Shown: one piece after another, positions 8,540-43,500 of the stretch
Position numbering within the stretch: the stretch's first letter is position 1
Layout: each line of letters opens with the position of its first letter
Source: Ceratodon purpureus
Taxonomy: Eukaryota; Streptophyta; Bryopsida; Pseudoditrichales; Ditrichaceae
Reading direction: 5' to 3'
Assembly (NCBI GenBank): GCA_014871385.1
Contig: CM026429.1
Location: 17,278,751-17,342,750 of the forward strand
Length of the DNA: 64,000 bases
Notes under the pieces: generated by a model
The model's database searches: none
Seen by the model: only the letters and a program-made list of their open reading frames with translations
What the model was told of the DNA's origin: nothing
Position numbers and translations under genes: made by a program

Positions 8540-8552
8540 TTCATTTAACGTA
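8540..8552. repeat. Left target-site duplication of the intact LINE
   Basis: The 13 bases TTCATTTAACGTA are repeated perfectly at 22725-22737. The bases flanking each copy differ, so the match is exactly 13 bp. It defines the left end of the inserted element. Confidence 0.85.
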
Positions 8553-8948
8553 GAAGGGAGATGAGTAGCTAAGGAGCTCCACGTTTTCCGGTGAGGAGAG
8601 GCTTAGGGAGTTAGTCGTTTGAGAGAAAGTGTGCAGGCAGCTTAGGGGCTGGATTTGCTGTGGAGTCCTATGTACACTTGCTGGATCTGCGATTTGTGTG
8701 TGGGTAGAGAATATGTGTTGGAAAGGACTCAGGTTTGGTAGAAACTAGATCTGTTGCAAACTTGTGCTGGAAGTATAGTGAAGACAAGCAATGGGCTGGG
8801 ACATGTGTTGGTGCTCTGTTTCCTTTCTACCCACAAACTTTGCACCTCAGATCTAGTATCCATCACTCTCAGATGGTGTAAGGGATTCTATGAAGCCCAC
8901 ATACCAAACTCCCTAGTCTCTCCAGATCCGGAATATCAGCATTTGCAA
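8553..8948 (+). promoter_or_regulatory. LINE 5' UTR, presumed internal promoter region
   Basis: This is the part of the element before the first ATG of the long 5' frame (8949). It is more GC-balanced than the flanking DNA and contains several out-of-frame ATGs. LINEs of this kind carry their promoter internally at the 5' end; that role is inferred and no specific factor site was recognised. Confidence 0.45.
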
Positions 8949-10931
8949 ATGGTCAAGACGCAACGCACACAGGGGCAGTTTTCTCCCTACCTCACTACTC
9001 TTCTATTCATTCCTTTTGCATTGCTCATGATTGAAACTGTTCACACTCAATGTTACAGTTTGGAAACCTTAGATAGAATGAGAACTAGACACTGCATGAA
9101 TGCCTACACCTCACTCCAACACTACACAAATTGCTCTATGTATCAGATCTACACTAACAACTATGTATACAAGTATTGTATAGATTGCTTTGGTTGCAGC
9201 AAGCTCAAGCAGTCGACCCAGAACCTGCAATCGCAACGCTCCACTCTCAACTACCTAAGTGCAGTTGCAGCAAGAAGAATCCAGCAGAATGCTGTCACCT
9301 TCTTTGGACACCAGCGTCAACCGCTCAATCAGCTACCGCATCGCCAGATCTGCAAGCAGGTCGATAGCGAGCCGCGTAACAAGGAGATAGAAATTGGCTT
9401 TGCAAGATCCAAGCAGAGTGACGAGCAGGGCAGTCAACTACATCAAGCACTGACACAACAATCACGACAAAGGTCAGCAATGCCGAGACCAACACAATCC
9501 GCAGAAGTCACATCAACGCTGCAACACAGAACCACACTGCAACGCTACAACGCAGAACTGCGCATCAACGCTGTAACACAGAACCGCACGCAACGGACAA
9601 CTCAACTGCAACAAGCAACGAAGGCCAGCATGAGCAGACTACACCAAGGATACGAAGATCCCCAACCTGCAACTGAAGACTTCGAAGAGAAGATCAACAC
9701 CGAGGGAGTGGAAGAGACCACCGATCCTACGAAGACAAAGTCAGCAGCTACGTCCCTCTCGAAGGCCACAGATAGCGTGAGGACCGAATCAGCTATAAAG
9801 CAAACCGTCGGAGAGCATGCAGCTGAGAAGATCAACATCTCGAGAGACATCAGAGACTTCGAAGAGAACATCACAGCTCCACATCAGGAACCTGCACCAC
9901 AAGCAACCGCATCTCAAGGACCTGCACTGCAAGCGACTGCACAGCAAGCACCCGTACCTCAAACACCTTCACCGCAAGCACATACAGCACAAGGTAACCA
10001 AACAGCAGCGTTCACAACCTCACATCAAGCACCTGCATCAAGACCTGAAGAACACTCCAAGGCAATCAAGAGCAGCAGAAGACACCGAAAAAATTGTACG
10101 AGCTACAAGAGTAACGACTCACCTCAAACCGGCAGGAGCAAGTTGCAGCGCCGAACAACTCCCCGAAGCTGCAGGGATAACACCAAGGTGAAGCAGCATG
10201 GAGCAGCGCAGGTACAGCACCAAGCGATAGGTGTCCTTTGCAAAACAAGGAAATGCAGAGAAACAGAAGACGGCAATTCAGATAGTACCAAGTACGTCCA
10301 CCTGAATGAGCTCACATCGAAGCAAAATAAAGGTCGCCGCAATGGAGATGCTGCAGCGTCAAGCACAAGCACGCCAATGCATCAGGTAAGAAACCCTAAC
10401 CCAATCTCATGTTCAAACCGGTTAAAACTTAGTCAAAAGGCTCAATTATTGTACATAATTTTACCTAGAAAAATTATTATCCACACTTCTAAACCACACA
10501 CTGCTAGAATGAGGAAATCCAACGGCCAGTCCACCGCAAACCCTAAAACATATTACCAGCCGCCTAAAGAATTACCTTCAAACAATAACCTAAAAATCCA
10601 ACATAAGCAAATGAACAGTAGGAGAATAATCATGTACATAAGCGTAACCCACAAAGCATTCTCCCTCTCTCACACACACAAAGTGCACCCCACAGTGCAT
10701 AGGAGAATTGTCCTCCCTGATTCTGTGTCTCAGTTAGTTTTTGATTTTGAGGAAAGGTTAGATAGACGTACCTTCTGTGAGAGGAGAGCAGTTGCAGCAA
10801 GGATTGTGTGCATTCTTAGCATAGCAGAGAAGCAGCGGCAAGTGGCGTTGGTAAAGGCAAAAGACGCGGTGCAACAACTTCGGACAGACACTGCGAAGGC
10901 AAGTGGAGGCGCAGTGTTGCTTACATTGTAG
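8949..10931 (+). CDS. LINE ORF0: Gln/Thr-rich 5' open frame, function unknown
   Basis: The frame is open from 8754; the first in-frame ATG is at 8949 (reading MVKTQRTQGQ), giving about 660 codons to a TAG at 10929-10931. The product is rich in Gln, Thr, Ser, Arg and Ala and low in complexity, with a Pro-Gln-Ala repeat zone around 9880-10050 (for example SPQAHTAQGNQ). No domain is recognised. The next ~980 codons in the same frame, through ORF1, are also open, so this TAG is the only stop between 8754 and 13892. Either ORF0-ORF1 is one protein broken by a point mutation, or the TAG is read through, or it is a real terminator. A consensus splice donor (CAG|GTAAG at 10386) lies inside. Composition alone could favour openness, so translation is likely but not certain. 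Confidence 0.5.
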   Translation: MVKTQRTQGQFSPYLTTLLFIPFALLMIETVHTQCYSLETLDRMRTRHCMNAYTSLQHYTNCSMYQIYTNNYVYKYCIDCFGCSKLKQSTQNLQSQRSTLNYLSAVAARRIQQNAVTFFGHQRQPLNQLPHRQICKQVDSEPRNKEIEIGFARSKQSDEQGSQLHQALTQQSRQRSAMPRPTQSAEVTSTLQHRTTLQRYNAELRINAVTQNRTQRTTQLQQATKASMSRLHQGYEDPQPATEDFEEKINTEGVEETTDPTKTKSAATSLSKATDSVRTESAIKQTVGEHAAEKINISRDIRDFEENITAPHQEPAPQATASQGPALQATAQQAPVPQTPSPQAHTAQGNQTAAFTTSHQAPASRPEEHSKAIKSSRRHRKNCTSYKSNDSPQTGRSKLQRRTTPRSCRDNTKVKQHGAAQVQHQAIGVLCKTRKCRETEDGNSDSTKYVHLNELTSKQNKGRRNGDAAASSTSTPMHQVRNPNPISCSNRLKLSQKAQLLYIILPRKIIIHTSKPHTARMRKSNGQSTANPKTYYQPPKELPSNNNLKIQHKQMNSRRIIMYISVTHKAFSLSHTHKVHPTVHRRIVLPDSVSQLVFDFEERLDRRTFCERRAVAARIVCILSIAEKQRQVALVKAKDAVQQLRTDTAKASGGAVLLTL

Positions 10932-10937
10932 AAGGCA

Positions 10938-12263
10938 GTGGCGAGAAGAAGGCGAAAAGGGCAAGAGGAAGGTAACCCTCGAGAGCAGCAAGGCTACTCA
11001 GCTGGTGTACCATCGAAACGAGTTGAAGGGCCGAAGGCTGCGGTATCGAAGGAGGGAGGAAGCTGTGATATCGAAGGTAGGCAGCAGGCTGCGGTGTCGA
11101 AGGTGGGCAGCAGGCTGCGATATCGAAGGTGGAGCATACTGAAGACGTCGGAGCGAGAGGCTGAAGGAGCGCTAACGGCTGGAGCGATAGGAGTCGGAGC
11201 GAGAAGCGAAGTGCCCAAGACTGCAACGACGAAGGCTGGAGCAAAGGCGTCGGAGCTTGGGAGCAAGGGGGTAGGAGCGTTGGAGCGCCGGAGAATTGCT
11301 GCCGGGAACGAGAAGCTTAGCGCAAACCAAGAGCCCACCGGTGCTGTGGTAGTGTGGACTGCGATAGCCCAAGAATCTGAATCCGCCCAAGATCTGCTAT
11401 TGACGGCAAAAGACGAGAAGGGAGAGGGCCAACCGAGCTCTGCAGAGGAGGATGCGAGCACTGCCAGTGCCTTGAAGACGAAGCCGCAGGCCGCAGTAAG
11501 CGAGGAATTGAGTCCAACGACGGCGGGAGGTGTAGCCCAAGGGATTTCGGCAGAGGTAGAGGTGATCTCGGCAGCATCACCCTGGCTGCTACCAGAAAGT
11601 CGGCGAGGCTGCAGCTCCGCAACTCAGCCAGGTTATTATTTTCAATTTTTCCCATCTGTTTGCTTATCCTACAACCCAACATCGGGATGTTTGTATCTGT
11701 GCATGATCACACACTATTATGAACAATATACTGGTTACCTACTTGTCACCAGCAGTGAGCTGGGGCAAGCTTGTCTCTGTGTATTAGACTTTAGGATTCA
11801 CACCAATTTATTTGTTAAGTTGCTTCATAATTGTAGCAGTTCTAGATTGTTTTACTTGCATTCGTTAGATGTTAGTAAGAGTGGGAAAATTGGTGATTGT
11901 AGCAAGTCTACTTTTAACCATCTTCTCACTAACTCCCAATCTTGCTATTACATAGAAATTGAAATGTTGCATGGAACTTATGTGAATGATTTTGAAACCT
12001 TGCATTGTATGTATTCTTCTTTGTTATGCAAGCTAACACATTATAGTTGGTACAACCAGTTTGTACCTTACTATAAATGTGTTCCACAAATTAGCTTTGT
12101 TAGAAATGTATGCCTTGGTATTCATTCACACTTCTTCCTCACTGTAAAGCTCCAACTAGGCCCACAACTTAATTTGTGGAATGGGGTTTTCAGTAGGATG
12201 ATAAGAAGTGCCCTCTTCACATTTAGAATGGAATACCAATACAACTTCTTTGTTTTCTACAGA
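10938..12263 (+). other. Open linker between ORF0 and ORF1 (coding extension or intron)
   Basis: This stretch is open in the ORF0/ORF1 frame but has two unlike halves. 10938-11640 is GC-rich with short internal repeats (CTGCGRTRTCGAAGG-type units near 11038-11130). 11640-12263 is AT-rich and translates to a Cys/Tyr/Phe-rich sequence that does not look like a soluble protein. A strong donor upstream (10386) and a pyrimidine-rich acceptor (TTTTCTACAG, ending 12262) directly before the ORF1 ATG suggest that 10386-12262 may be spliced out, making it a 5' intron. The join would not keep ORF0 in frame with ORF1, so ORF1 would start at its own ATG. Confidence 0.45.
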
Positions 12264-13892
12264 ATGGCATCACCCTCCAATTTTGCATTAACTTCGAAAA
12301 AACTCTTTGAGGAAAGTGCTATGGTGGAAGTAGAAGTCCAGAGTCAGAAAAGAACAAGTACTGCTCAAGTTGTGTCTAGCCAAAAGAAGGTCAAGGGCAA
12401 AGAAATTCAATTTCAGCGCCCTCCCTTTTGGCTAGGTTTTCATGCTTTAAACCTCCTTGCAAAAGAAAAAGATGCACCAATGGAACCCTCCCATTCTGTG
12501 AGCCAATTGGTTAGAATGGGAGTTAGCAATGAAGAGGCATTAGATTGTGTGCAAAGTGAACCGGCTTTTCCATATGTGCTCCAAGAGGAATGGCCCTCGA
12601 AGAGGACGGATGGAAAAGAAGGTAACCACTATAATCTCACCCAACTCCCTCATGAACTTGAGGTTGATGAGTTCGGGTTTGCCCTTGACTACCATGTGGC
12701 AATCTTTTTTGAACTTGGCGAAATGGAATTATTAAAAGATGATGTTATGGAAATGGTTGTTGCAAGATTGAATCACATGCATATTGAAGTGGGGGATTTA
12801 CTTGGTGAACCCATTGCAATAATGTGTTACCACGGATCAAAAAAGTGGAGTGGGTCGGTCAAAATTCACCTTAAAGACCCTAAGACGGATGGATGTGGCC
12901 TTCTTCAAGGTCTTCGTCCGTTCATCCTTAAATTGGATGGACAACATATCCGGAGGGGAAAGGTGTGTAAAAGCTTCGACTCCATTGCCATTGCTAGTTT
13001 ACTCTCAATTAGAGTAAACAGCGAGCAATTGAAGGGAAAAAAATGGTATAATATGTATGAAGAAGTTGTGACTGATAGTTTTGAAAGATGCCACGATTTT
13101 GAAATTACCAATATCCAAAAAAATGAAGGGGCGGATTTTGCTTGGATAAAAGCACCGTCACCGGATGAGGCAAAAAGGATAAGGTTACTCAAAATCTCCT
13201 TTTCCAATGAGCTTATGGATGCAAAATTTGCAAGCAAGGAAAGGATGTCGGATGATGACAAGGCAAGAAAGAATGCAATAGTTCTCATAGCAAAAAATCT
13301 CAACAAATCCAAATCTACCATTGCTCTTGAAGAAGGAATCAAGGCACATATGGGTGAGAAAAATGTGATTGGAGTATTTTTTCGCCTTGAGAACTATAAA
13401 CATGTTGGATCTTGTAACATCCAATGTGCAAGTGCAGCAGTCTATAAAAAGTATGTCAAACAAAATGCAAAGATTTTTGGGAAGTATGTAGAGTTTTGCC
13501 CTCATCCAAAGAGTTTGGACGGAGTTAATGCACCAACATCCGAGGAATTAACAAGACTAGGATTCAGTGATGTCAACACTGCCTTAGCTAATACGGTCCA
13601 AGCCATGGAGAATGGACCTTCCAACAACCTCTCCAAATCTGAGCTTAACCGCATGGTAGAAGATGCGGTAAATAAAGGAGCAGTAGAAATAAGGAAGGAA
13701 ATGAGTTTGCTTAAAAACGAGATTGTTGAAGAAGCCAAAGTGTATGCGGACAAAGTACAAGCAGAAGCAAACAAGAACTCAAGAGCTCAAATGGCACTCC
13801 TTCAAAAACAATTGAGATTAACTCTTGAATCCATCCAAGCCGACCACCCCGAGACCCTTGAAATTGAGGGACCAATGGATATGTCAAACTAG
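12264..13892 (+). CDS. LINE ORF1 protein with RRM-like region and coiled coil
   Basis: From the ATG at 12264 (MASPSNFALTSKK) to TAG at 13890-13892 this encodes 542 residues. I chose this start because it directly follows a splice-acceptor-like site and because typical folded-protein composition begins here. The N-terminal ~35 residues are basic and Ser/Lys-rich. A globular middle follows. Residues about 335-415 have an RRM-like pattern (AIVLIAKNLNKSKS, then a helix, then VIGVFFRLENYK, then IFGKYVEFCPHPKS). The last ~100 residues are heptad-like and charged, predicting a coiled coil for multimerisation. LINE ORF1 proteins are nucleic-acid chaperones that form RNPs with element RNA, often combining RRM and coiled coil; the role here is inferred from position and pattern. 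No CCHC knuckle is seen. Confidence 0.7.
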   Translation: MASPSNFALTSKKLFEESAMVEVEVQSQKRTSTAQVVSSQKKVKGKEIQFQRPPFWLGFHALNLLAKEKDAPMEPSHSVSQLVRMGVSNEEALDCVQSEPAFPYVLQEEWPSKRTDGKEGNHYNLTQLPHELEVDEFGFALDYHVAIFFELGEMELLKDDVMEMVVARLNHMHIEVGDLLGEPIAIMCYHGSKKWSGSVKIHLKDPKTDGCGLLQGLRPFILKLDGQHIRRGKVCKSFDSIAIASLLSIRVNSEQLKGKKWYNMYEEVVTDSFERCHDFEITNIQKNEGADFAWIKAPSPDEAKRIRLLKISFSNELMDAKFASKERMSDDDKARKNAIVLIAKNLNKSKSTIALEEGIKAHMGEKNVIGVFFRLENYKHVGSCNIQCASAAVYKKYVKQNAKIFGKYVEFCPHPKSLDGVNAPTSEELTRLGFSDVNTALANTVQAMENGPSNNLSKSELNRMVEDAVNKGAVEIRKEMSLLKNEIVEEAKVYADKVQAEANKNSRAQMALLQKQLRLTLESIQADHPETLEIEGPMDMSN

Positions 13893-13894
13893 CT

Positions 13895-16800
13895 TTGACC
13901 AATGTAGCTCCAAATATCTCTACTTTTATAGTATATATATATACTAAAAATAAAAAACTAATTAAAAACTATAATAAAGTATCCCTAGATACTACCTTTT
14001 TAAAAGAATACTTATCACCTCGAACTCATCCAAAACTTAAGATTCATCCAAAATCTCAAATTCATCCAAAATGCAAAATTCATCCAAAATCTAAAAATCA
14101 TCCAAAATACAGAGTTCATCCAAAGTGCATAATTCATCCAAAACCTAAAAACCATCCAAAATACAGATTCCATCCAAAATGCAAAATTCATCCAAAATCT
14201 AAAAATCATAATATAAAATTCAGAATTCATCCAAAATGCAAAATTCATCCAAAATCTAAAAATCATTCAAAATTCAGAATTCATCCAAAATGCAAAATTC
14301 ATCCAAAATCTAAAAATCATTCAAAATTCAGAATTCATCCAAAATGCAGAATTCATCCAAAATCTAAAAATCATCCAAAATACAGAATTCACCCAAAATG
14401 CAAAATTCATCCAAAATCTATAAACCATCCAAAATACAGAATTCACTCAAAATGCGAAACTCATCCAAAATACAGAATCCATCCAAAATGCAAAACTCAT
14501 CCAAAATCTAAAAACCATCCAAAATACAGAATTCATTCAAAATACGAAACTCATCCAAAATACAGAATCCATCCAAAATGCAAAACTCACTCAAAATATA
14601 TAAATCATCAAATCTTCAAAGATCATTCTAAATCCAAAATTCATCAAAACCTCAGATTATATTCAAACAACATATTACACCCCGAATTTAAAACCCATCC
14701 TAAAATACATGTAAAACTAAAAACCTACCAAAACCATATGCCTCATATAAAAGTCAAAAACCTTCCCAAACTAAGAACCCACTCAATACCTAAAACTCAA
14801 ATAATATTAAACACTATACAAAAACAAAATCTCTTAAACAAACACTCGACAACTATGGCCTATCAACACCTCAAGCAAATAGAATACACCTATCCACATC
14901 ACGAGAAATTAGAAAATGAGAGAAACAAAAACCACCACATATACAACTGGTTTGCTAACTCAATTACAAATCATTCAACCGAAGTCATTACAACCGTACA
15001 TTACCTACCCCCATGTCTAGAACAAATAATACCTGCATTACCTAATCTATTTAACACAACAAAATTTATAACAATAAAATATTATAAATTAAATTATAAA
15101 AACCCTAAAACTAGTTCTTACCAAGGATACTACTTCGTAAATAAATTAGCCCTACTTCAATGCGGGGACATTGAATCAAACCCAGGGCCAATGCCCAACA
15201 TACTTAGAACTCATCCAACCGATCACAAGAAAAGAGCTAGAAGATACTTCATCCCTAGCACAATTAAATTACGCCCGGAATACCAACATATTGCAAACTC
15301 ATTTGCTCCAATTTTACAAACTAACCACCATCTACACCATCTAGCAATCATGGAATTTCCACACCTACATCGATACATACAAATACAAATACAATCTCCA
15401 CTACCTCACATACTATATGCATTAATCATTACCATACACCCACTAATAAATACGTGTAATAATATATTAGCTCAGCCCCGCATTTACCACTTTAATGATA
15501 TTTGGACCAATACAGTATTGATCAGACTAGCCAACCTGAGAAACCCTCCGGAAAGACACATCCTCACTCAACACCCTTATACCAAATTCATTGAAATGAA
15601 CGAAGACCTAATATCCCCAAAAAACTCAATTCACAATGAACTTTACAAATTTATTCATAACCAAGATACACCACCAACACCTATCATACTTCAAAGAAAA
15701 TTTCCTTTCCTACCAAACAAATTAATCACTGAAGCTTTACGATGTCTCGAAAGTCTAAATGAATACTCACATCCACCACCCCTTCCAAACATCCCAACAC
15801 CTCCGCCGAGAATAAACATCAACACCAATGACGAAACAAAAATAATAACTTGGAATGCATCTTCGCTTAACACAGCTTTACCAAACCTACAAAACCTCGT
15901 ATACAACTCCTCAAGGAGTACGGCAATTATAAACATCCAAGAAACAAAACTCACAGCAACCAAATCCACTAAATGGATACAAAATCTATTTCCTGAGTAT
16001 AAACTCATTTTTAATAACACACATGCCCTCACAAGATGCATACAACAAAGAATGCCCTACACCCCGGGAAGAGGAGGCTTACTTACACTTATACACAATA
16101 AATATGCTTTCCCTGGAAATATTACCAAAATCCCTACACCAGCAAACATTTCCCCATATCTACAAATAATAAAAATAAACAACCATCCGTTATTACCATG
16201 GTTAATCATACATTTATATATGCCGACACACCTAGAAGACATCCGCCTCATCCCCCACATTCAAACTACAATCACAAACCAAATAAATGCACACCCTAAT
16301 CATACATACATCTTGTGTGGAGACTTCAATCGTGATATAGCACTAAATGGAAGACAAAATCACAACACCAACACCCCACCACAAGAAGAAGATATTCAAT
16401 GGAAAAACTTTACAAATTCACTAAATCTAGAATACGTCCCAACAAACACAACATTCACGAGACAAGGTGGTTACAACTACACATCAACTAGTCTCATAGA
16501 TGGTTTCTACATTAAATCCCTAGATAATACTAGACTTACCTCCACGACAAACACAAATCTGAATCTAAACTCAGATCATTATCCAGTCACCTTACACATT
16601 CCACAAAACTTATTAATAGCCAGACCACCGGCCCCCACCAATACCCCAACAATTAGAATCTTAAATCCAATACCTCCAGAAAACTTAGAAAAATTTAATA
16701 TTGAATTTTTTGAAAAAAATTCTATACAAATAAATGAATTAACCAGACTTCTAGAAAATAATGACCATCTTACCCCCGATTTATGGCAAGAAGCTTGCGC

Positions 16801-19800
16801 ATCCTTAGACAAAATCGTAGAAAAAATCTCAGAAACCATCGAAAAAACATGTAACGCACCCCCACTACCACAACTCACAAATAGAACAAGACAACAAGGC
16901 GGTTTTTTACCGCGAAAACTAGCCAAAGAGTGGAAAAAACACCTTGCCACATACCATCTTATCAGGAAAACTATATTTATCGCAAAAAACAACCCCCAAT
17001 GGCAAACACACCCCATATTGAACGAAATACGTAGCCACCAATATGTACAAATCCCACATCCACCAGCAACAGACTCTATACCGAACGAATGGATCGATGA
17101 CATAGCTAAAATCGCAAAAATTGCTAACAAAGAAGCTAGGAAAATAACCACAAAATACACTAAAAATTGCATCTACAAAGCTGTATCAAAATATCGACAA
17201 TTGTATGAAAAAAGCCCCAAAAAAGTAAATCGAAAAGTCTTCAAAAACTCTGAAACTTCACCTCTTGACTCTATAATGGATAGACAAAATAACATCTTAA
17301 CTAGGCCAGAAGATATTGCTCAAGAAATTTACATCCAACAATCTATTAGTAACCGGCCAACAGTCCCTACATGTCATTATCAAACTACACATCCTCCACA
17401 ATGCACATGCAGCGTTAGACAATACCCATGGCATGACTTAGACGGATTCACAATTGATCAACGCGGAGAACCACAAATCCCCCTACACACATACTTTGAT
17501 CAAGAAACCTATGATTTATGCCTCAAAAACCTAGGAAATAACAAAGCCCCAGGCCCAGACAAAATACCTAACTCTATTCTGAAAAACATGCCCCCACGAT
17601 TCCACAAACTACTATTTCTATTTTTTAAACACTGCTACAAACAAAAACAAATACCTGCAACATGGAAAACCAGTCTAACTGTCTTATTATATAAAAAAGG
17701 TGAACCATCCCAACTTACAAACCATAGACCTATCGCTTTAGCGAACACCATATACAAACTCTTTACTAGCACATTAACCTTTATCCTTTCTACTTACGGT
17801 GAAAGACATCAAATTCTGCATGACAGCCAAGAAGGATTCCGAGCAGAAAGAGGAACATCCAGACAACTTCAACTACTTATTGCAGCCTTAGAAGATGCAA
17901 GATTTACAAATCAAGATATATATATTCTCTACATTGACTTCAAAAATGCTTTTGGCTCCATTGACCATGCGAGACTCTTAGCCATAATGAAAGATCTCGG
18001 ATACCCAACCGATGCTATAAACTTGGTAGGAAATATATACTCACAATCCTCCACTATATTTTCTGGAGAACATTTTGGTAAAACTCTACCTATTCCCATC
18101 CAAAGAGGAACAATACAAGGAGATACTCTTAGCCCATATCTATTTATAATATTCTTAGAACCACTTCTTCGATGGTTACAACAAGGTAACAATGGATACA
18201 CCTTTGGTACATCCAAAGTCACAATCTCATCTGCAGCATATGCTGATGATTTAGCAGCTATTGCTAACAAATTAGCATCACTACAAATACAACTAAATAA
18301 ACTAGACAAATTCTGCGAATGGGCTGGAATGGATCTTGGTATACCTAAATGTGCAGTGACCGGATGCCCGAATAAATCAAAAATGAACCCCATAGCATTC
18401 AAAGCACAGATCCAAGCCACCAATATAAACTACAGAAACCAACCAATACCAGTTTTGGACCAACATGACCCTTATACATACCTTGGAATAAACCTAGCAC
18501 CATCACTTAAATGGAAAACACAAATAAACACCACCACAGCTAAAGTCATCAAACAATGTCAAGCCTTAGTGGCTTGCCCAGCCACTATGAAACAAAAAAT
18601 CAACATGGCCGATACAGTCATACGTGCCGGGATCGCATACAGCTTCTACGCAGTACCATACTCTATACCAGCCATTAGAAAACTTGACAAAAAGATCATA
18701 GCACTCCACAAAACAATATGTGGACTACCAAAAAGTACATCTAATATAGCTACACAACTCCCACACGATCTATTCGGAATGGAAGCCTTTTCGTTAAAAA
18801 ATGCCTATCTAAGATGTATTGGAGAACAATTACAAAATGCTCTCAACGACAAAGGCAGACTCGGTAAAATCTACTATGGCTTACTACAATTCATACTTGC
18901 AAAATTTGGAGGCTCCGAAGAAATAGAGCGCATTAAATATCAAGATTGTGTGAGATCCCCTATCACTAGAACATTGTTTTTACTTAAACATGAAGCCGGA
19001 GTCCACCTTAAAAGCACTATAGAAAACTTTCTATTAAACCCATCCCCACTCGAAACCGCATGGATGCAAGAAGCACAACACCTACATGGACTAAATCCCA
19101 AAACTTCTCTCAAACTACTACAAAAACTACTAGTACATAATATAATAAATTTAGAACAAATAACCATGCCTAACGGGACCACCTTAATGAACCCAGAAGA
19201 ATATAAAATATACCACTCCAACCCCACAAAACTCATAAAAAGTGCGCTAAATATTGCCAGTCAATTATTTTGTAAACCCACTTGCCATCAAAGATGCCAA
19301 ATACCATGCAGATTCCGATACCACTCCCCCCCAAGAACCCTAAAAAGTGATTACATAGTATTAAACCACAACATTCTACCACGACAATTGAACCCCCCAA
19401 TACACCCCCCCAACCCTCCTATTCCCGAACTTCCTCCTCCTCCCAACAATATGCTTAAATATCCAAGACAATTCCCCATACACACAATATTAAACCACAA
19501 ACAAAATAAAATAAAAGACCCAAATGGGATAAACTATAAAGATACAACATATTTATGCCAATGGACCACGCCAAATAATAATACATACAACAAATGGCGT
19601 AGCCAAAGTGAACTTTTCCCATGGAGCGACATTAACACCTGCCACCACAATACTGAATTACTTACACAATACTACACTAAACAACAACATAAACATTTTT
19701 TAAATATCATCGAAAAGAACTTCTCCATAGAACAACAAAAAGATACAAGATACGTTACTCCGGCCACAATTATCCCATTGGCACATATCTCCATTAATGA

Positions 19801-20692
19801 ATGCAACCCAGAAAATGACATCGAAACAGAATCGAACATTATTCAAACACAACATGACATTGCACACATATACGAAGATAATGGCCGACACCTCATCACC
19901 ATTCCAAAAACTAGACTACTATGGCTATGGAAACAATATCAACATGCAAAAAACACTCCACATAGCCTTGAGCCACCCACCCAATCATTTGAAACAGAAA
20001 TTGTCTGGCTATATCAAAGATATAAATACCGTATCCCAAAAAATGATCCACTTAAATGTGCTCAATACACAATACCAACTGAAATACTAGATTCTCTAAT
20101 ATCAACATTCAACATCCACCAATCCTACTTTTCATCCCCAGTTACATGCCCTACACAATTTACCCAATTTTACTCACCATTCTCACGAGATATAATATTT
20201 GGCTCCTTAGGAAAAGCATTTGATCACCAATGGAAAGGAATTGGCTACGCCCACCCCCACAATGAAACCGACATACAACAAGCCATTCATTGGGCCCGCC
20301 TTGCGGCAAAAAATAATCCAAACAACATCACCATACTCATCTCTCCCGATTCTAACTGGTACCAAAACTCCAACCCCCACACTGGTCCATTCCCGGACAC
20401 ACATATTATTGCCCACTTTGCTGCAGACACCATTACATATGACGAGCCAACAATTCCCCCCGAACTTAAGCTAGAAAGAAAAGAACTTTCTACGCTCCGA
20501 ATATTCTGTATCCATCACCAAAACAACAGTATCGGTACGCACGAGCAAATGAATCAACTTGCTCAGACAATTAACAATCTCCAAATATTACAAACTCACA
20601 CACAAATTGCATCCCTGACCCCCTTAAACACTCATGTCAATCCCAGTAAAAAAATGGTCCAAATCATATTTTCCAAACACCCCCGCAAATAG
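13895..20692 (+). CDS. LINE ORF2 polyprotein: HPK repeats, 2A, APE endonuclease, reverse transcriptase, chromodomain-like segment
   Basis: 2265 codons, open from just inside the end of ORF1. There is no in-frame ATG until about 14855, after the HPK repeats. Residues about 44-254 are 35 tandem His-Pro-Lys modules. Residues 424-432 are the 2A core (DIESNPGP), which would split off the first 431 residues. The APE endonuclease spans about 650-905 with WNAS, IQETK, CGDFNRD, LIDGFY and SDHYPV. The reverse transcriptase spans about 1210-1500: APGPDKIPNSIL, NHRPIALANTIYK, EGFRAERGTSRQL, YIDFKNAFGSID, IQRGTIQGDTLSPYLF and YADD (18239-18250). Further on are a Cys cluster (CKPTCHQRCQIPC), a chromodomain-like segment (19460-19690) and a conserved C-terminal module (about 20130-20520). 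The enzyme nicks target DNA and copies element RNA onto it. All catalytic motifs appear intact. Confidence 0.95.
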   Translation: MTNVAPNISTFIVYIYTKNKKLIKNYNKVSLDTTFLKEYLSPRTHPKLKIHPKSQIHPKCKIHPKSKNHPKYRVHPKCIIHPKPKNHPKYRFHPKCKIHPKSKNHNIKFRIHPKCKIHPKSKNHSKFRIHPKCKIHPKSKNHSKFRIHPKCRIHPKSKNHPKYRIHPKCKIHPKSINHPKYRIHSKCETHPKYRIHPKCKTHPKSKNHPKYRIHSKYETHPKYRIHPKCKTHSKYINHQIFKDHSKSKIHQNLRLYSNNILHPEFKTHPKIHVKLKTYQNHMPHIKVKNLPKLRTHSIPKTQIILNTIQKQNLLNKHSTTMAYQHLKQIEYTYPHHEKLENERNKNHHIYNWFANSITNHSTEVITTVHYLPPCLEQIIPALPNLFNTTKFITIKYYKLNYKNPKTSSYQGYYFVNKLALLQCGDIESNPGPMPNILRTHPTDHKKRARRYFIPSTIKLRPEYQHIANSFAPILQTNHHLHHLAIMEFPHLHRYIQIQIQSPLPHILYALIITIHPLINTCNNILAQPRIYHFNDIWTNTVLIRLANLRNPPERHILTQHPYTKFIEMNEDLISPKNSIHNELYKFIHNQDTPPTPIILQRKFPFLPNKLITEALRCLESLNEYSHPPPLPNIPTPPPRININTNDETKIITWNASSLNTALPNLQNLVYNSSRSTAIINIQETKLTATKSTKWIQNLFPEYKLIFNNTHALTRCIQQRMPYTPGRGGLLTLIHNKYAFPGNITKIPTPANISPYLQIIKINNHPLLPWLIIHLYMPTHLEDIRLIPHIQTTITNQINAHPNHTYILCGDFNRDIALNGRQNHNTNTPPQEEDIQWKNFTNSLNLEYVPTNTTFTRQGGYNYTSTSLIDGFYIKSLDNTRLTSTTNTNLNLNSDHYPVTLHIPQNLLIARPPAPTNTPTIRILNPIPPENLEKFNIEFFEKNSIQINELTRLLENNDHLTPDLWQEACASLDKIVEKISETIEKTCNAPPLPQLTNRTRQQGGFLPRKLAKEWKKHLATYHLIRKTIFIAKNNPQWQTHPILNEIRSHQYVQIPHPPATDSIPNEWIDDIAKIAKIANKEARKITTKYTKNCIYKAVSKYRQLYEKSPKKVNRKVFKNSETSPLDSIMDRQNNILTRPEDIAQEIYIQQSISNRPTVPTCHYQTTHPPQCTCSVRQYPWHDLDGFTIDQRGEPQIPLHTYFDQETYDLCLKNLGNNKAPGPDKIPNSILKNMPPRFHKLLFLFFKHCYKQKQIPATWKTSLTVLLYKKGEPSQLTNHRPIALANTIYKLFTSTLTFILSTYGERHQILHDSQEGFRAERGTSRQLQLLIAALEDARFTNQDIYILYIDFKNAFGSIDHARLLAIMKDLGYPTDAINLVGNIYSQSSTIFSGEHFGKTLPIPIQRGTIQGDTLSPYLFIIFLEPLLRWLQQGNNGYTFGTSKVTISSAAYADDLAAIANKLASLQIQLNKLDKFCEWAGMDLGIPKCAVTGCPNKSKMNPIAFKAQIQATNINYRNQPIPVLDQHDPYTYLGINLAPSLKWKTQINTTTAKVIKQCQALVACPATMKQKINMADTVIRAGIAYSFYAVPYSIPAIRKLDKKIIALHKTICGLPKSTSNIATQLPHDLFGMEAFSLKNAYLRCIGEQLQNALNDKGRLGKIYYGLLQFILAKFGGSEEIERIKYQDCVRSPITRTLFLLKHEAGVHLKSTIENFLLNPSPLETAWMQEAQHLHGLNPKTSLKLLQKLLVHNIINLEQITMPNGTTLMNPEEYKIYHSNPTKLIKSALNIASQLFCKPTCHQRCQIPCRFRYHSPPRTLKSDYIVLNHNILPRQLNPPIHPPNPPIPELPPPPNNMLKYPRQFPIHTILNHKQNKIKDPNGINYKDTTYLCQWTTPNNNTYNKWRSQSELFPWSDINTCHHNTELLTQYYTKQQHKHFLNIIEKNFSIEQQKDTRYVTPATIIPLAHISINECNPENDIETESNIIQTQHDIAHIYEDNGRHLITIPKTRLLWLWKQYQHAKNTPHSLEPPTQSFETEIVWLYQRYKYRIPKNDPLKCAQYTIPTEILDSLISTFNIHQSYFSSPVTCPTQFTQFYSPFSRDIIFGSLGKAFDHQWKGIGYAHPHNETDIQQAIHWARLAAKNNPNNITILISPDSNWYQNSNPHTGPFPDTHIIAHFAADTITYDEPTIPPELKLERKELSTLRIFCIHHQNNSIGTHEQMNQLAQTINNLQILQTHTQIASLTPLNTHVNPSKKMVQIIFSKHPRK
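14024..14656 (+). repeat. Coding tandem repeat: 35 HPK hexapeptide modules
   Basis: The basic unit is 18 bases encoding (I/N/T)HPK plus two residues. Modules run in a three-step cycle of about 54 bases encoding IHPKCK, IHPKSK, NHPKYR, giving a higher-order period. One module has seven residues; later ones diverge (THSKYI, DHSKSK). There is no frameshift in the 633 bases, which in such AT-rich sequence argues that the repeat is translated. The product would be a very basic, histidine-rich, Pro-punctuated tract that could bind nucleic acid or metal; that function is speculation. Confidence 0.93.
15158..15190 (+). other. 2A-like ribosome-skipping peptide site in ORF2
   Basis: Codons at 15158-15190 encode QCGDIESNPGP, matching the 2A consensus D(V/I)ExNPGP exactly. 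It is preceded by a short hydrophobic stretch (NKLALL), as is usual. The Gly-Pro break would fall at 15187/15188, so the HPK-bearing N-terminal product has 431 residues and the EN-RT product begins with Pro then Met. 2A sequences are known in some non-LTR retrotransposons (for example trypanosome L1Tc and sea urchin elements). Skipping activity here is inferred from the perfect motif. Confidence 0.9.
19460..19690 (+). other. Chromodomain-like segment in ORF2
   Basis: The translation reads FPIHTILNHK, then after a short insert YLCQW, a loop with NKW, and an end resembling ELLTQYY. This follows the chromodomain order: a starting aromatic or hydrophobic strand with I-L-x-H-K, a YLVKW-type strand, W-x-P-x-x-L-like middle and C-terminal helix ending near Tyr. 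Cage-like aromatics are in place. Chromodomains guide some LTR retrotransposons to heterochromatin; in a LINE this would be unusual. The match is by eye only. Confidence 0.5.
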
Positions 20693-22223
20693 CTCAACAC
20701 CTATCCCACAAATACCAAATTACCAAACAAATCTTCCACTAAAATTCCACCCCCAATTCAGTTATTACACAGATGGATCATTCAAACCCCCAAAGGAAAA
20801 GGCCAACGGTAAATGGAAAAGAGAAAAAGCCGGATACGGTATTTACAGCCCCAAAGGCCTCAATATCCCCAAAAGACTCCATGGACACCAAAATATACTT
20901 CGTGCCGAAATGATGGCAGTACACAAAGCACTGAGAATTATTAACACACAATTCCCCAACGAACCAGCATACATATTTACCGACTGTCTAAATGTACTAT
21001 ACCTACTTAATACACAAATAAAACACCCCACACTACATAATAGTCACCCCGACCAAACTACACTTGCCTCCATAGTAGAACTACTCCAACAAAGAACACA
21101 ACCAATTTCACTATACAAAGTAAGAGCACACATCAACATTGACGGTAACGAAGAGGCAGATTATTTAGCAAAGCAAGGTCTGAAACTAGCACACAGAAAA
21201 GCCCTACACCCGTACGAACATGCCCATGCCACTCCATTCTACTTCCAAAAAGATAACTGGCCTTCAAAAAACGATGTTCCAGACAAAGGACCAGTTAGAA
21301 CTCTAGAAAAACAAATCAAAAAATATGACAGAGAAAACAATCTAGAAAACATGGCCATACAAACCCCCAACATTTGCAAATGGACGGAAAATGTAGACAT
21401 AGACAATGTACTTTCTAACGAATTTTGGGAAAATCCAGCCATTACTGACAAGCAAAAATCATGCCTCATAAAATTCCGTACGGGAACTTACATGGGCCAA
21501 GCTAGAAAACAAATGTTCTTCGGAAGAGAAAGATTTCCATCCATCACATGTCCCATTTGCAATTCACGCGAACCGGATACATGGCTACATGTATTACTCA
21601 CATGCCAACAACAACATATACACTCCCTCCGAGTCAAAAGACACAACAAAGCAGTATGGGAAATTAGAAAACTACTAGTCTCATCCGAAAAATCTCGTTG
21701 TTTTATTCTAATGAATGCGGGCACCTTCAATGATAAACCCCCAGAAAATACCGTTCCCAATTGGTTACTTCCATGCACATGTGGCACTCAAAGATGTCAT
21801 TGTAACTCTAGATTTAGACCAGACATTCTTTGCGTTAAAGGTTTGCCGTACCAAAGCGACCCCCCTACAGCAATAAACCCCAATCTTACCATACAATTCA
21901 TTGAATTCACATACTGCAATGACAGATTTTCACCAGAAACATTTTTAGCTAAAACCAACAAATACAACCCACTAATTGCCAGTCTTACCGCTAGAGGATG
22001 GAAAGTTGACCCCCTCATTGTCATCACAGCAGGCGCTAGAGCTACCACACACATTCCTTCAATGAAACTACTTGCAGACAATTTCAAAATACCATGGCTT
22101 ACCATCAAAAACACCTTTAAAAACATAAACACTATTGCCATACAATATGCCATGTCTATACTTCTCCACAAAAGAAGAATAGAAAACCACCAACCACTAC
22201 CCGAGACATTAGATCCCCCATAG
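20634..22223 (+). CDS. LINE ORF3: RNase H, CCHC finger, possible PD-(D/E)xK nuclease
   Basis: 529 codons from an ATG at 20634, overlapping the last 59 bases of ORF2 in the +1 frame. Residues about 42-185 are an RNase H type I domain with the full acidic set: Asp47 (YYTDGSF), Glu92 (LRAE), Asp117 (FTDCLN) and Asp176 (EEADYLAKQG). It would remove the RNA strand after first-strand synthesis. Residues 306-324 form a C-x2-C-x9-H-x4-C finger (CPIC to HVLLTC). Residues about 395-450 contain RPDIL, then IEFTYCND with Glu424, then lysines (AKTNKY), and further ITAGARA. This order resembles the zinc knuckle plus RPD..E restriction-like endonuclease of R2-type LINEs, although the spacing from RPD to Glu (26 residues) is longer. 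In many LINEs RNase H is fused to RT; here it sits on a separate frame. ORF3 needs reinitiation or frameshifting for expression. Confidence 0.88.
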   Translation: MSIPVKKWSKSYFPNTPANSSTPIPQIPNYQTNLPLKFHPQFSYYTDGSFKPPKEKANGKWKREKAGYGIYSPKGLNIPKRLHGHQNILRAEMMAVHKALRIINTQFPNEPAYIFTDCLNVLYLLNTQIKHPTLHNSHPDQTTLASIVELLQQRTQPISLYKVRAHINIDGNEEADYLAKQGLKLAHRKALHPYEHAHATPFYFQKDNWPSKNDVPDKGPVRTLEKQIKKYDRENNLENMAIQTPNICKWTENVDIDNVLSNEFWENPAITDKQKSCLIKFRTGTYMGQARKQMFFGRERFPSITCPICNSREPDTWLHVLLTCQQQHIHSLRVKRHNKAVWEIRKLLVSSEKSRCFILMNAGTFNDKPPENTVPNWLLPCTCGTQRCHCNSRFRPDILCVKGLPYQSDPPTAINPNLTIQFIEFTYCNDRFSPETFLAKTNKYNPLIASLTARGWKVDPLIVITAGARATTHIPSMKLLADNFKIPWLTIKNTFKNINTIAIQYAMSILLHKRRIENHQPLPETLDPP

Positions 22224-22425
22224 TCAAAGAAAACCCCTAAATATAATCAAAAATTTTAGTAGCTAGAGCTACTTTATTTGAATTGATAGCATACGGGTGT
22301 CAAGTCTCTTGTCAACTTCTCACAGAGGGGGCTGTTGGTTGGCACAACTCTCTACTGCCTGCAAATTGCCCACTCAGCAGTACCAAGCCACTTCATCCCC
22401 CACATCCACTCAAACGAGTCCATCA

Positions 22426-22500
22426 GGGTTCGAACCCGGACCAGATTAATGAGACAAACGCTCACCTCCAACCAACAAACGAGCTCGTGGCTTGGTGTCC
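22426..22500 (-). other. tRNA-like segment (SINE-type head) in antisense within the LINE 3' UTR
   Basis: On the minus strand a B-box-perfect GGGTTCGAACCC (22426-22437) is preceded by TTTGTCTCATTAATCTGG, which looks like an anticodon arm with CAT, and by GAGCTCG..TTGGTTGG, an A-box-like stretch. Order and spacing are those of a tRNA 5'-to-3'. The acceptor stem does not form well, so it is not a functional tRNA gene. A decayed counterpart lies near 8380-8500 in the older copy at the equivalent place, so it belongs to the family's 3' UTR. Confidence 0.65.
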
Positions 22501-22692
22501 AAAATTGAAAACAAATGAATCTTGAGTTGATAAATCACTACTATTACTGGCTACTTGTTACTAGTTACTGGTTACTGGTTACTTTGTGACTAAAGTGTCT
22601 ACTCTCGAAAGGGGGGAGTAGATCTTTACTTCCATACCTTTGTCCTGTGGGCATTGGCTTGGGGGTGGATCGAACAGACACTTAATTCACTT

Positions 22693-22711
22693 CGGTCTCC
22701 TCCGGAGACCG
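22693..22711 (+). other. Terminal 3' hairpin of the LINE
   Basis: CGGTCTCC and GGAGACCG pair perfectly (8 bp) around a TCC loop, 13 bases before the end of the element. The older copy keeps AGACCG and GTTTCTCT at the corresponding place (near 22860-22877). A 3' stem-loop recognised by the RT is known in stringent-type LINEs; that role here is inferred. Confidence 0.7.
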
Positions 22712-22724
22712 TAGTTTCTCTCTC

Positions 22725-22737
22725 TTCATTTAACGTA
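22725..22737. repeat. Right target-site duplication of the intact LINE
   Basis: Identical 13-mer (TTCATTTAACGTA) to 8540-8552, directly after the element's CTCTCTC end. Confidence 0.85.
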
Positions 22738-24273: not shown

Positions 24274-24471
24274 TGATGTCAGACCTACTTTTTGTATCCT
24301 CTCCATTGGACTTGAGCCTCTCACTTCAAAGACGCCACATTTCACCACTTCCTCCTCCTTTCTAACTTAGACTGATGTCAGACCTACTTTTTGTATCCTC
24401 TCCATTGGACTTGAGCCTCTCACTTCAAAGACGCCACATTTCACCACTTCCTCCTCCTTTCTAACTTAGAC
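24274..24471. repeat. Perfect 99-bp tandem duplication
   Basis: 24274-24372 and 24373-24471 are identical by eye, each starting TGATGTCAGACC and ending near CTTAGAC. The absence of differences indicates a recent duplication or an assembly artefact. The unit has no recognisable coding content. Confidence 0.92.
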
Positions 24472-27299: not shown

Positions 27300-27985
27300 T
27301 TGTCACTTTCCAATGCCTTTCTTTCCAGAAGCTCCCCTCCTTCCAATGCCTCCAAACCATGTCCACAACTATCATGTCATGGGCCGTGTGAAGGCACCAA
27401 ACTTTGGCAACCCATAACTTGGCCAATTTTACTCCGATTTGCACACTTCTTGGCTTCATCTCGCACGCTCTCTCACGCTCTTTCCATCGGTATAAGGCAC
27501 GGCCGCTCATTCCTCCGCATGCAAAAGTTGGATTTGTGGGTGCACCGTCCAATTCCAAACTTCGGCGACCCATATCTCCGTCAATTCTTTCCCGATTTGT
27601 GTGTTTTATGCACCTATCTTGTGCACTTTTTGATGATCTTTCCAGCGGTATAAGGCTCGTCTTCCCATTCTTTGCCATTCAAAAGTTGCATGTTGAGCCG
27701 TATCACCTAGGAAGAACAAACTTCGGCGACCCATATCTTCTAAAGTTCGTGTCCGAATTCCACATGTTTTTTGGCTACATTCTCTCTGATTCTTCATGCT
27801 CTTTCCATTGGTATAAGGCTCGCCTTTCCATTCCTTTCCATTCAAAAGTTGGATTTTCGGTGCCCATTCTGACACTAAACTTCGGTGACGCATATCGTGG
27901 GCTACGGTTGAGGGTTTCTTATGTTTTTTGGGTGCATTGTGTCTAATTTTCCATGCTCTTTCCATCGGTATATGGCTCGGCCTCT
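27300..27985. repeat. Satellite-like tandem repeat, ~159-bp unit, about four copies
   Basis: The landmark AACTTYGGCGACCCATAT recurs near 27400, 27558, 27719 and 27878, so the period is 158-161 bases. A second landmark, CTCTTTCCATCGGTATAAGGCTCG, occurs in each unit and in partial units at both ends. Copies are about 75-85% alike by eye. Open frames on both strands across this region are by-products of the repeat. The period falls in the range of plant satellites. Confidence 0.85.
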
Positions 27986-28751: not shown

Positions 28752-30202
28752 ATGGCGGAAACCGACAAGGTAATGTTTCGCCTCTGGTGCCTGACGTGCT
28801 GTGCTGTGCTGCATGTGTTGTTGTGGGTTTGCAAAGTTGGGGTCGGGGTTCTTGTGAGTGATTTCCTGCTGGGCGCACTGGCTGTAGGGCGATCTTGCGC
28901 GTATTTTGATTTGCTGCGAGGCTGACTATGTGATGAATAGGATGGGGTTTTGTGTCGTATAATTCATGTCTTGTGTGTGTCTGTTGTTGTTGGTGTTGTT
29001 GAGTTTTGTGGCAATGTTTGGGGGCGCAATCATTAGTATGGACGAGGCATGTCCATGCTTGTATTTTGTGAGGTGTTTGCTGTGGTGAGTGGGAGTGAAG
29101 CAAAATGCCTTCAACCGTCTGGTGAGACGGTTCATTGATTTTTTTAATTTTCTTATTAATAGGTCTTTCACTGCTATGTTATGAACTAGTGATTTCAGTG
29201 TGAATTTCTGGTTGAAGATTAAGGGTAGCGGCTGTAAGGAGAGGCTGAGGCTGAGGGTCATCAGTGTGTTTTGGTTTCTTATTGTAGCCTACACGCATCC
29301 TAAATTTCTCACATCTGGCGTGACGCAGAGCTCACCTTTACATTTTGTTGTGCTTTCTGTTGCACCCGCTGACTTACTTCCTGTCTCTCGCAGAGTTCCG
29401 ACCTGAAGTATCTTGGGCTCGTTCATGCGCTTGTCTTGCAAGCAGCAGCCTATCTGGCTACACTTTATGCTTACGCGAAGGACAGTTCGGGGCCTCTGAA
29501 ACCCAGCGTTGATAATGTTGAAGGGACAGTAAAGACCGTCGTCGGCCCTGTTTACCAGAAGGTGGAGGGGAAGCCTTACCAGCTTCTGCAATACGTCGAT
29601 AGCAAGGTATTTCATCATAAGTCGATCTGTCCAGAATGGCAGTAATGGTATAGCTGACTCGATTGGTCATTTCATAACTTTCTGTGCGTTTTTCAGAGTC
29701 TCTGGCTTGAGGAAATTATTTATGTAAGTGTAATAATCCTGTATATGAACGTGATGTGCAGGTTGACGACACCTTCACATATGTTGACGGCGTCGTACCG
29801 AAGTACGTGAAGGATAAGTCCTACCAGGCACTGGATGTGGCCAAACAAGCTCCAGATGCTGCAAAAAGCATCGTTGCCGATGTTCAGTCTCGTGGAGTTT
29901 ATTCAACTGCGTCTTCTTACTACGAGAGATACGAACCAGTTGCTGAGCAGTTGACGTTCGACGCATGGCAGAAGATTCTTACTGTGCCATATGTTCCTCA
30001 AGCTGTGAATGTTGCTGCCCCTGCCGCTAGATTCGGAGCTCTTCAGTACAACAACATCGCGAAAGGGTTGAAGACGAAGAACTTTCCCTTGGTCGGCTAC
30101 CTTCCTTTGGTTCCTATCGAGAGAATTGAGAAAGCTCATGCAGCTGCTGTTCCTGCTTCCGCAGGCACGGCTCCTTCTGCTCCTGCTGTTACTGCCGAAT
30201 AG
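28752..30202 (+). CDS. REF/SRPP family lipid-droplet-associated protein (3 exons)
   Basis: Exons: 28752-28769, 29394-29606, 29762-30202, all with GT-AG borders and phase 0 joins, giving 223 residues. The start MAETDK is followed directly by the first intron. Exon 2 holds the family's first block (LKYLGLVHALVLQAAAY, then VEGTVKTVVGPVY), and exon 3 continues with VVPKYVKDKSYQALDVAKQ. Rubber elongation factor / small rubber particle proteins, called LDAPs in plants without rubber, are amphipathic proteins that coat lipid droplets or rubber particles and also respond to stress. There is no signal peptide. The Ala/Pro-rich tail (from about residue 205) is typical of variable C-termini. The family is clear; the organism's use of the protein (lipid droplets) is inferred. 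Confidence 0.92.
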
Positions 30203-40583: not shown

Positions 40584-43500
40584 TTATGTTGTAGTAGCAT
40601 AGGCATGTACATACAATCGAACTGCCAAAGCTCCAACAAAAGCTACAACAATTGCTAACATAATTTCTCTTGTACTTATATTTTTTTTATAAAATTGGGC
40701 CTTCGATTCATTGCATGTTTCTAAATGTGCTGACATTGATTTTCTACTTTCTTCTTGATTAACCTTAGATGTATGGCTTAAGGCATTTTTAACTTCTATT
40801 AATTGAGAAGTATATACATTTGACTCTAAAACATCCTCCTTGATAATTGCTTCCATCATTTCAAGTTTTTTCTCAACAGTATGTTTCACTTCTTGAAGTT
40901 CAACATTGTTAGCTTGAAGAGAACTCAACTGGGATTCTAATTCGCAATTATTTTTTATTAAATAAACAATAGATTTGTAATACTTTTCTTTCTCTAATCT
41001 ATTTGCATTAGCCAAATAATTATTTTCATCGTATAAAATGTTCATTTCTAAAGAAACTTGAACTTCATTATCATTATATGTTGGATATGAATAACTTGTT
41101 ATTTGTGGATATAATAATTCGAGAGATTTTGGAGATTTTGAATATTGAGACAATATAGGAAATTTGGGAGATTTAGATGAGTTGTAAGATTTAGGAGATT
41201 CCACAACAAGCATTGGCAAACCTCCACAAGCATTTTCAATTAGTTTATCGTTATCGTGATACTTACTTTGTAAATTGTAAATCAATTCTTCAACTACTTC
41301 TTTGACAATTGTTTTTACTTCATGATATTCATTATTTAAAATTGTTTCGAATTTGATATAACTATTGTTGGATTTATTGTAATCCATTAAAAATTTATTT
41401 TTGTCATTCAAAAGAACCTATTTAAATCAATATCAATAAAGTGATTAAGTAAATGATAAATCATTATGTATTAAATTAATGATAGTAATCAAAAATTCGT
41501 TTTATATTTATAAGTTGAATTTTGAAAGTCTAAGTTAGATACTAGATTTTAAAATTTACATCATTAGTAAAAGAAACTTCGAATAAAACCTCTCCAGGAA
41601 ATCGAAATGATTCTTCATCAGCACAAGTAACATCTATTATTTTCGATTTATTTTGAAAAAACATCTCATTTTCCTTTGTTTCGTCTTCCAAATCAGCTAT
41701 TTCGAATTCTTTCTTTTTGGCAAAATCCTGCATTAATATATTTTGATAATGCTTGTATTTTATTTTTAATTATGAATTATCTCATATGATAAAATCAAAA
41801 ATTGTTATTATAAAAAGAAAACATTGTGTTCAAATGCTACAGTAATTATACTTAAAAAGTTGAGAGTTTGTAAAAGGGTCATATTATAGAATTAAATAAG
41901 TTTTATAAAACTTTGATTATTGCAATCTGATGATGAATTATTATTATTATTATGTAAATTTTAATCATATATCAAATATAATTTCTTAAACATCTTATAC
42001 ATATCAGATTTATTTGAATTGAATAATAAATACTTCAAGCATTGTAATCTTTTTATCAAATCAGACCATGTAAATAATAAGTCACCTTCAAAAGGTCATT
42101 TTGTATAATCAAATTGTTGTTGATACTTGATATTTTTTCATTTTCAAATGTAAGTAAATTTACTTTGCTTCTATATTCAATTATTATTTGCTTACATATG
42201 TCTAATTTCTTAAGCAAATCATCAATTTTACTACTTGCTACAAATATAGCACTTTCTGATTCTCTTTTTTCTATCATTAATGCATTTAACCTTGAATCAA
42301 CAATTATGTTGTTTGATTGATCTTGTAGCATTATAATTTTGTTCTTTAACCCTTTTTTTTCCAAATTCAATGGATCATAATCAACATCTATTGATTTTAT
42401 AAACTCATCTACCTCTTGAACGTTTTCTTGTGATTTATCTCGATCAATTTGAAGAATATCAACTATCCTTTCTAATGACTTTATTTCATCTTTTAGATAA
42501 TAATTATTTTCTTGGAAATAGATATTTTTATCTTGTGATGTCTCTACATCTATCTGCAAAAGAATAATTTTCTCTTTACATTTTTCAAGTTCACATCTGT
42601 AAACTGTTAAATCGTGTTGATAATTGTTTATAATGGATTGAGAAATTTTTTTCTCACTTTCTAAAATTCTTATTTTTTCTATCCCAGATAATTTAGCATC
42701 TTCTGAAATTTGAAAATTCTCCCTTACCAAATCCCATTCCATTTTTAATTTTGAAAGAATTTCATTGAAAGATGATTTTTCAAGTTCTGATTTATCTAAA
42801 GATTCCTTCTGTATGATTATTTCGGTTCCTGATTTTTCAAACTCACTACAAAGAACTATTGTAATATTTTTTAATTTTTGCAAATTTTTAATTAATTCTT
42901 CATTTTTAATTTTTAATTTTAGAACGTTTTTATGAAAATACCGTTTTTTATGTTCTTCTTTTTCAAGCCGGCCTATTAAAAAATCATTTTCATTTTGAGA
43001 TTTTATTAATGATTCACGCAATAATACATTGTTTACTTGGGTTTTTCCTAATCTATCTTTATAATTTTGATTTTCGCTTATCTTTTCTTCATGAGATTTT
43101 GTTAAAGTATTTCTACAAATCTCCAGATTTTGTATTTGTAATTGGAGATTTTCTATTTTTTTATTTAATTCTTCATTAAACTCTCTTAAAGTTCTATTAT
43201 CCGTTATAAACGTGTCTAATTGCCTTTTCAAATTGACATGTTCATCAAGAGCTATAGTTAAATTATTCTCAAGCGATTTTCTTTCTTCAAGGATAGATTG
43301 TAAGTTGTTTAGCATAATGTTTTGATCAATTTTAAGACCAAGTATTTCTATTTGAAATTTCTTTTGATCTTGAACATACTTGTCATCTTCAATTTGCAAT
43401 GATTCATTAATGCTTGTATCTAACTTGGAATCAGCCATCCAAAAACAATGATTCTCTATGGAGTCCTTACATTTATAACATTGTGAATAAATTACTTGAT

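Follow-up and report, generated by a model that had tools for sequence, protein, structure and literature searches.

The Dualen (RandI) group of non-long-terminal-repeat retrotransposons is said to go back to Kojima and Fujiwara (2005), and a cysteine protease domain, not strictly defining, has reportedly been found in the Dualen element of Chlamydomonas. R2 elements target 28S ribosomal DNA (rDNA) and contain neither an apurinic/apyrimidinic-type endonuclease (APE) nor RNase H. In the accessible parts of the literature, Dualen/RandI elements are described with both an APE and a restriction-like endonuclease (RLE) (PMC4640811, PMC3636483), are listed among the long interspersed nuclear elements (LINEs) with RNase H, and are cited as a link between RLE and APE LINEs (PMC4640811); the group is also mentioned in PMC8226300. 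The accessible part of a table in PMC3747384 places RandI in green algae, with 8 families, and L1 and RTE in flowering plants, and has no entry for mosses. Here we analysed a 64-kb window, that is, the whole stretch of 64,000 nucleotides at positions 17,278,751 to 17,342,750 of contig CM026429.1 of the moss Ceratodon purpureus, which carries a 14.17-kb insertion at 8553–22724 on the plus strand. By its domain content, we regard this insertion, with a probability of about 75%, as a twice-damaged copy of a Dualen-group LINE, whose family encodes a chain of about 2800 amino acids (aa) holding an APE, a reverse transcriptase (RT), a PCIF1-like domain without the NPPF motif, RNase H, and a predicted R2-type RLE, and which likely inserts by target-primed reverse transcription.

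The second open reading frame (ORF2) extends from stop to stop over 13868–20692, with its first ATG at 14738; all features of the element given below lie on the plus strand unless stated otherwise. The APE occupies ORF2 residues 370–617 (15845–16588; PF14529 above its curated cut-off, PF03372 just below), and a profile built on relatives matches the L1 endonuclease. The RT follows at residues 986–1253 (17693–18496; PF00078, 2.4e-27; R2 RT, 1.1e-29). Further downstream lie RNase H (20760–21182; PF00075, 2.3e-14), in which the D-E-D-H-D residues are present, a CCHC zinc knuckle of the form CPIC...HVLLTC (21549–21605) within the stretch aligned with R2, and a predicted RLE with the pattern PD...E...K (21681–22184). 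The CCHC residues are near-invariant across 68 sequences, and the predicted C-terminal fold matches that of R2 over 228–263 residues. A Pfam profile search of the ORF segments thus matched APE, RT, RNase H, and a PCIF1-like domain, and together with the CCHC motif and the predicted R2-type nuclease fold it agrees with the enzymes named in the original prediction, which had been made from the letters of the window and described an intact giant LINE with a domain set unlike that of any plant LINE known to its author.

The ratio of nonsynonymous to synonymous substitution (dN/dS) against the genomic copies L023, L024, and L027, whose protein is 81–83% identical, was 0.03–0.04 for RT, 0.05–0.07 for APE, and 0.07–0.08 for the PCIF1-like domain, and with L028 added to these copies it was 0.10–0.12 for RNase H and 0.04–0.05 for the RLE. 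Comparison with L012 and L013, which are closer copies, gave higher and noisier values (RT 0.04–0.08, APE 0.10–0.25, PCIF1-like 0.12–0.22); L012 was excluded from the RNase H and RLE values, as its frame is broken there.

The NPPF motif has a catalytic role in PCIF1. The original prediction contained a conserved C-terminal module, which does exist and is identified here as a domain like this cap-specific adenosine methyltransferase (19805–20560; PF12237, 1e-9, above cut-off). Its top six Foldseek matches were PCIF1, and comparison of its profile with human PCIF1 (6irv) gave 1.6e-10 with the NPPF motif aligned. The domain is therefore homologous to that of PCIF1/CAPAM but differs in that the NPPF motif is replaced: the position reads HPHN in the moss LINE (about 20252–20263), and NPP[FYW] occurs in 0 of 101 rows; a few relatives read HPPF or xPPF. 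The relatives used were 120 of 220 for RT and 120 of 156 for ORF3. The domain was present in 96 of the 120 RT relatives listed and in 26 of 35 Haematococcus rows, and the region was recovered from 70 of 240 relatives by a single-sequence search and from 112–116 of 240 by an iterated profile; absences among the relatives mean little because many of the sequences are truncated. A domain still active as an RNA adenine methyltransferase, placing marks on the RNA of its own element, would agree with the fold matches, which are adenine methyltransferases with cap-specific PCIF1 first, with the dN/dS of 0.07–0.08 against copies that are 82–83% identical, and with the few relatives that read HPPF or xPPF. 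Against such an enzyme stand the HPHN of this copy and the lack of NPP[FYW] in every one of the 101 rows, and we consider it improbable. We predict instead that the domain has been retained for binding capped RNA or for a structural role. The accessible part of PMC7641849 states that the Pfam entry PCIF1_WW denotes the CAPAM-like methyltransferase and not a WW domain.

The element resembles Dualen/RandI in that the APE lies N-terminal to the RT, a predicted RLE and an RNase H are present in the same element, and the 3′ end is a short repeat other than poly(A). In a comparison set without a named Dualen reference, its RT falls among metagenome proteins and algal proteins, including those of Haematococcus and Parachlorella, whose architecture is similar. 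It differs from Dualen/RandI in its moss host and its HPK-type array, and may differ in its protease domain, as no OTU or Josephin protease was matched by Pfam in the window, while the relatives P0034 and P0098 have one. Other relatives carry PHD, OTU, or Josephin domains, and P0051 combines RT, PCIF1-like, and RNase H domains with a DNA cytosine methylase domain (PF00145). With R2, the moss element shares the CCHC–RLE C terminus, by fold, and RT similarity. Unlike R2, it has an APE and RNase H, and there is no shared rDNA-type insertion site, since the 3′ flanks differ in 10 of 10 loci and the two target duplications known in full are unrelated to each other.

The element might also be a plain Dualen/RandI member in which only the host is new. 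The combination of APE, RLE, and RNase H is the described Dualen/RandI set; therefore, although the full domain set is unusual, as had been claimed, most of it already belongs to a known clade. The PCIF1-like domain may also be old and simply unremarked, or described outside the accessible literature, because it is present in most of the RT relatives listed. On the other hand, we found no report of Dualen in moss (or under Physcomitr-) or of a PCIF1-like domain in a retrotransposon among the papers listed from the accessible literature, most subscription journals being outside its coverage. We regard this plain membership as possible, though hardly the expected outcome. What still sets the Dualen-group copy proposed here apart is that it occurs in a land plant and carries a PCIF1-like domain, a 2A sequence, and an HPK array.

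L1 is the usual LINE of plants, and like plant L1 elements the moss element has an APE upstream of the RT and two ORFs, so that it could be read as an L1-type LINE that acquired extra modules and whose C-terminal likeness to a nuclease is superficial. The total of the APE–RT profile indeed slightly favours L1 ORF2p over R2 (3.3e-53 versus 6e-52). However, the L1 total is the sum of 78.6 bits for APE and 109.8 bits for RT, whereas the R2 RT alone reaches 180.3 bits, and the RT searched as a single sequence hits R2 (1.1e-29), with no L1 chain reaching E ≤ 1. The element also has the C-terminal fold of R2 over 228–263 residues, a PCIF1-like domain, and a (CT)n tail in place of poly(A), whereas L1 elements are not known to carry an RLE or a PCIF1-like domain. 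A poly(A) tail is recorded for 224 of 233 flowering-plant L1 families in the accessible table of PMC3747384. An L1 origin is thus very unlikely, and we retain the assignment to the Dualen group.

The insertion is enclosed by an exact 13-bp target-site duplication, TTCATTTAACGTA, at 8540–8552 and 22725–22737. A second full-length copy on another contig (C1) is 98.9% identical over 8556–22725, with 94 mismatches in 14111 aligned bases, and has its own, unrelated target duplication of 12–13 bp (TAATACCTTACC, read by eye), so that both paired duplications are about 13 bp; its 5′ junction has approximately 20–25 nt of additional DNA. These results bear out the giant, recently inserted LINE and the perfect duplication of the original prediction. 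In the source genome (362.5 Mb, 151 contigs), ORF2 had at least 24 scored matches on 12 contigs with 81–100% aa identity, a lower bound, as 24 were scored among 1697 first-look candidates; two of the labels used here, L046 and L023, denote one copy. Lower bounds were likewise obtained for the 5′ end (8553–9053; at least 40 scored genomic matches) and for the 3′ untranslated region (UTR; 22224–22724; at least 40 scored places, each with at least 93% identity), and the 125-bp tails were identical in 15 of 40 scored, the window's included. In 10 of 10 loci, the window's own among them, the 3′ UTR closes with a (CT)n run whose length varies and beyond which the flank is different each time. The base composition changes near 14 kb and the histidine-rich array is odd, as might be expected if the assembly were chimeric or if nested insertions had built up a composite; however, the entire structure is repeated at 98.9% identity on another contig, ORF2 recurs in at least 24 scored places, and the exact duplication encloses the whole. 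We therefore rejected a chimera, whose probability is negligible.

The insertion is a single unit, but its coding is not intact. The ORF1 frame (8742–13892) is broken by a TAG stop at 10929–10931; it is unbroken in the C1 sister, whose coding consists of two frames of 1714 aa and 2802 aa from stop to stop, and in L046 (83% identical ORF2 protein), whose first frame has 1785 aa. Consequently, the ORF0 (8742–10931) and ORF1 (10932–13892) described earlier are one frame split by the TAG, and ORF0 was rejected as a feature of the family. In the second frame, the end of ORF2 overlaps with the RNase H–RLE end at 20628–20692 with a change of frame. This junction is in one frame in 19 of 24 copies, as it is in the sister, split in 3, including the window's, and not assignable in 2. 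The RNase H, CCHC, and nuclease-like domains proposed for a separate ORF3 are thus real, but they form the end of ORF2, and a separate ORF3 was likewise rejected for the family. ORF0 and ORF3 are lesions of the window copy, damaged by the TAG in the first frame and the frame change in the second, and its open frames, although long, overstate its integrity.

Read from the domains at every step, the life cycle would run as follows. A full-length capped RNA would be translated into the ORF1 protein and the ORF2 chain, from which 2A would separate the N-terminal part from the APE–RT–RLE enzyme. One endonuclease would nick the target, the RT would use this nick to prime synthesis from the 3′ end with its (CT)n tail, and RNase H would remove the RNA template; the second endonuclease would assist in cutting or positioning the opposite strand, and the duplication of approximately 13 bp would result. 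More tentatively, we propose that an ancient LINE group took over a cap-methylating enzyme, switched off its catalysis, and retained it to read the cap at the 5′ end of its own RNA, such that loading and integration are limited to complete capped transcripts, that APE and RLE share the two target cuts, and that such an element is alive in a land plant. If this is true, a PCIF1-like domain without NPPF, kept in most of the relatives listed, represents a new means by which a retrotransposon recognises RNA of its own. Because the family is multi-copy in a moss, with long open frames and copies that are nearly identical, the division of work between two nucleases becomes testable: sites, duplications, and tails can be read directly across many copies.

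The N-terminal part of ORF2 contains a 2A/StopGo sequence, LLQCGDIESNPGP, at 15152–15190. The occurrence of 2A/StopGo sequences in APE-type LINEs was reportedly described by Odon (2013). The site has the canonical form that had been predicted: its DIESNPGP fits the expanded core motif (D/G/C/N)(V/I)ExNPGP (PMC12846837, accessible part) and lies in the RT frame, where ribosome skipping is predicted. The moss site resembles the 2A of APE-type LINEs in this motif and differs in that it occurs in a plant element assigned to the Dualen group; according to the accessible part of PMC12846837, there is no evidence that plant viruses naturally use 2A. The motif is present in 21 of 24 copies. Of the 240 relatives, 15 have a 2A-type motif in the first third of the protein, and 11 of these are from Haematococcus. 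The segment of approximately 215 aa after 2A is constrained (dN/dS 0.11–0.13) and has no known domain. Ahead of 2A, Tandem Repeats Finder and frame analysis revealed an array of an 18-nt, HPK-like unit (14026–14649), whose translation is putative. As it lies in the ORF2 frame before the first ATG, it is not a separate ORF, and of the HPK repeat protein proposed earlier, the repeat stands but the separate protein does not. In another copy, L045 6481–7799 (82% identical ORF2 protein), the repeat unit before 2A is NTKNKN-like instead, and the frames of ORF1 and ORF2 lack the overlap seen in the window copy.

The conserved part of ORF1 has 542 aa (12264–13889) and 100 homologues; against L046, dN was 0.22–0.39 with dS at or near saturation. 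A database protein from a 2093-base ENA contig (P0241) is 99% identical to its product over all 542 aa. The C-terminal end of ORF1 appears coiled-coil-like by our own reading, in agreement with one half of the RRM-like/coiled-coil ORF1 proposed earlier. The other half, an RRM, was unsupported: the conserved part had no PDB match at E ≤ 10, ORF1 of the window copy gave at E ≤ 1 in Pfam only a chance-level DUF4472, and RRM_PARP14_3 appeared weakly in 4 of 27 relatives (best E 0.054). Upstream of 12264, both the C1 sister and L046 keep an open frame, but with slight conservation; over 9300–12264, aa identity to L046 was 0.18–0.31 and dS was undefined or above 1.8, and a constrained protein from the ATG at 8949 to approximately 12260 was therefore unsupported. 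At the start of the conserved part, a splice-acceptor-like CAG directly precedes AATGG (12250–12266), and the residues ahead of the ORF1 Met in several relatives match the same motif; a 5′ intron before the conserved part is possible because the two agree.

The 5′ end (8553–9235) is likely the 5′ UTR and promoter, and dN/dS was 0.62 over 8742–9300. It shows 83.5% DNA identity to L046 over 8558–9235, although the synonymous sites of ORF1 are at or near saturation between the two; the 5′ ends may therefore have been swapped from one family to another, or constraint may have preserved them.

A small strand-strand-strand-helix segment was modelled at 19475–19684, with a confidence score (pLDDT) of 70–86 by block, and may have a chromo-like fold. 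Pfam found no chromodomain there, nor did one appear among the best 50 rows of each of two fold-match listings, and these searches gave no support to the chromodomain-like segment proposed earlier. ARAGORN found no tRNA genes, and a search of the element for known structured RNAs gave one chance-level match only; on the minus strand of the 3′ UTR, 22400–22490 resembles the tRNA-type promoter box (GGTTCGAACCC) known from short interspersed nuclear elements.

Elsewhere in the window, an AT-rich region (40584–44191; 22–26% GC per kb) has minus-strand open frames of 277, 495, and 152 aa that look coiled-coil-like by eye and have no Pfam match. Two plant gene exons were matched by Pfam, one with a BSD2 cysteine-rich domain (1339–2028; 1e-38) and one of the REF family (29711–30202; 6.3e-37); both point to a land-plant genome. 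Downstream of the insertion lie four diverged repeats with a spacing of about 157–163 nt (27398–27979) and a perfect 99-bp tandem duplication (24274–24471).

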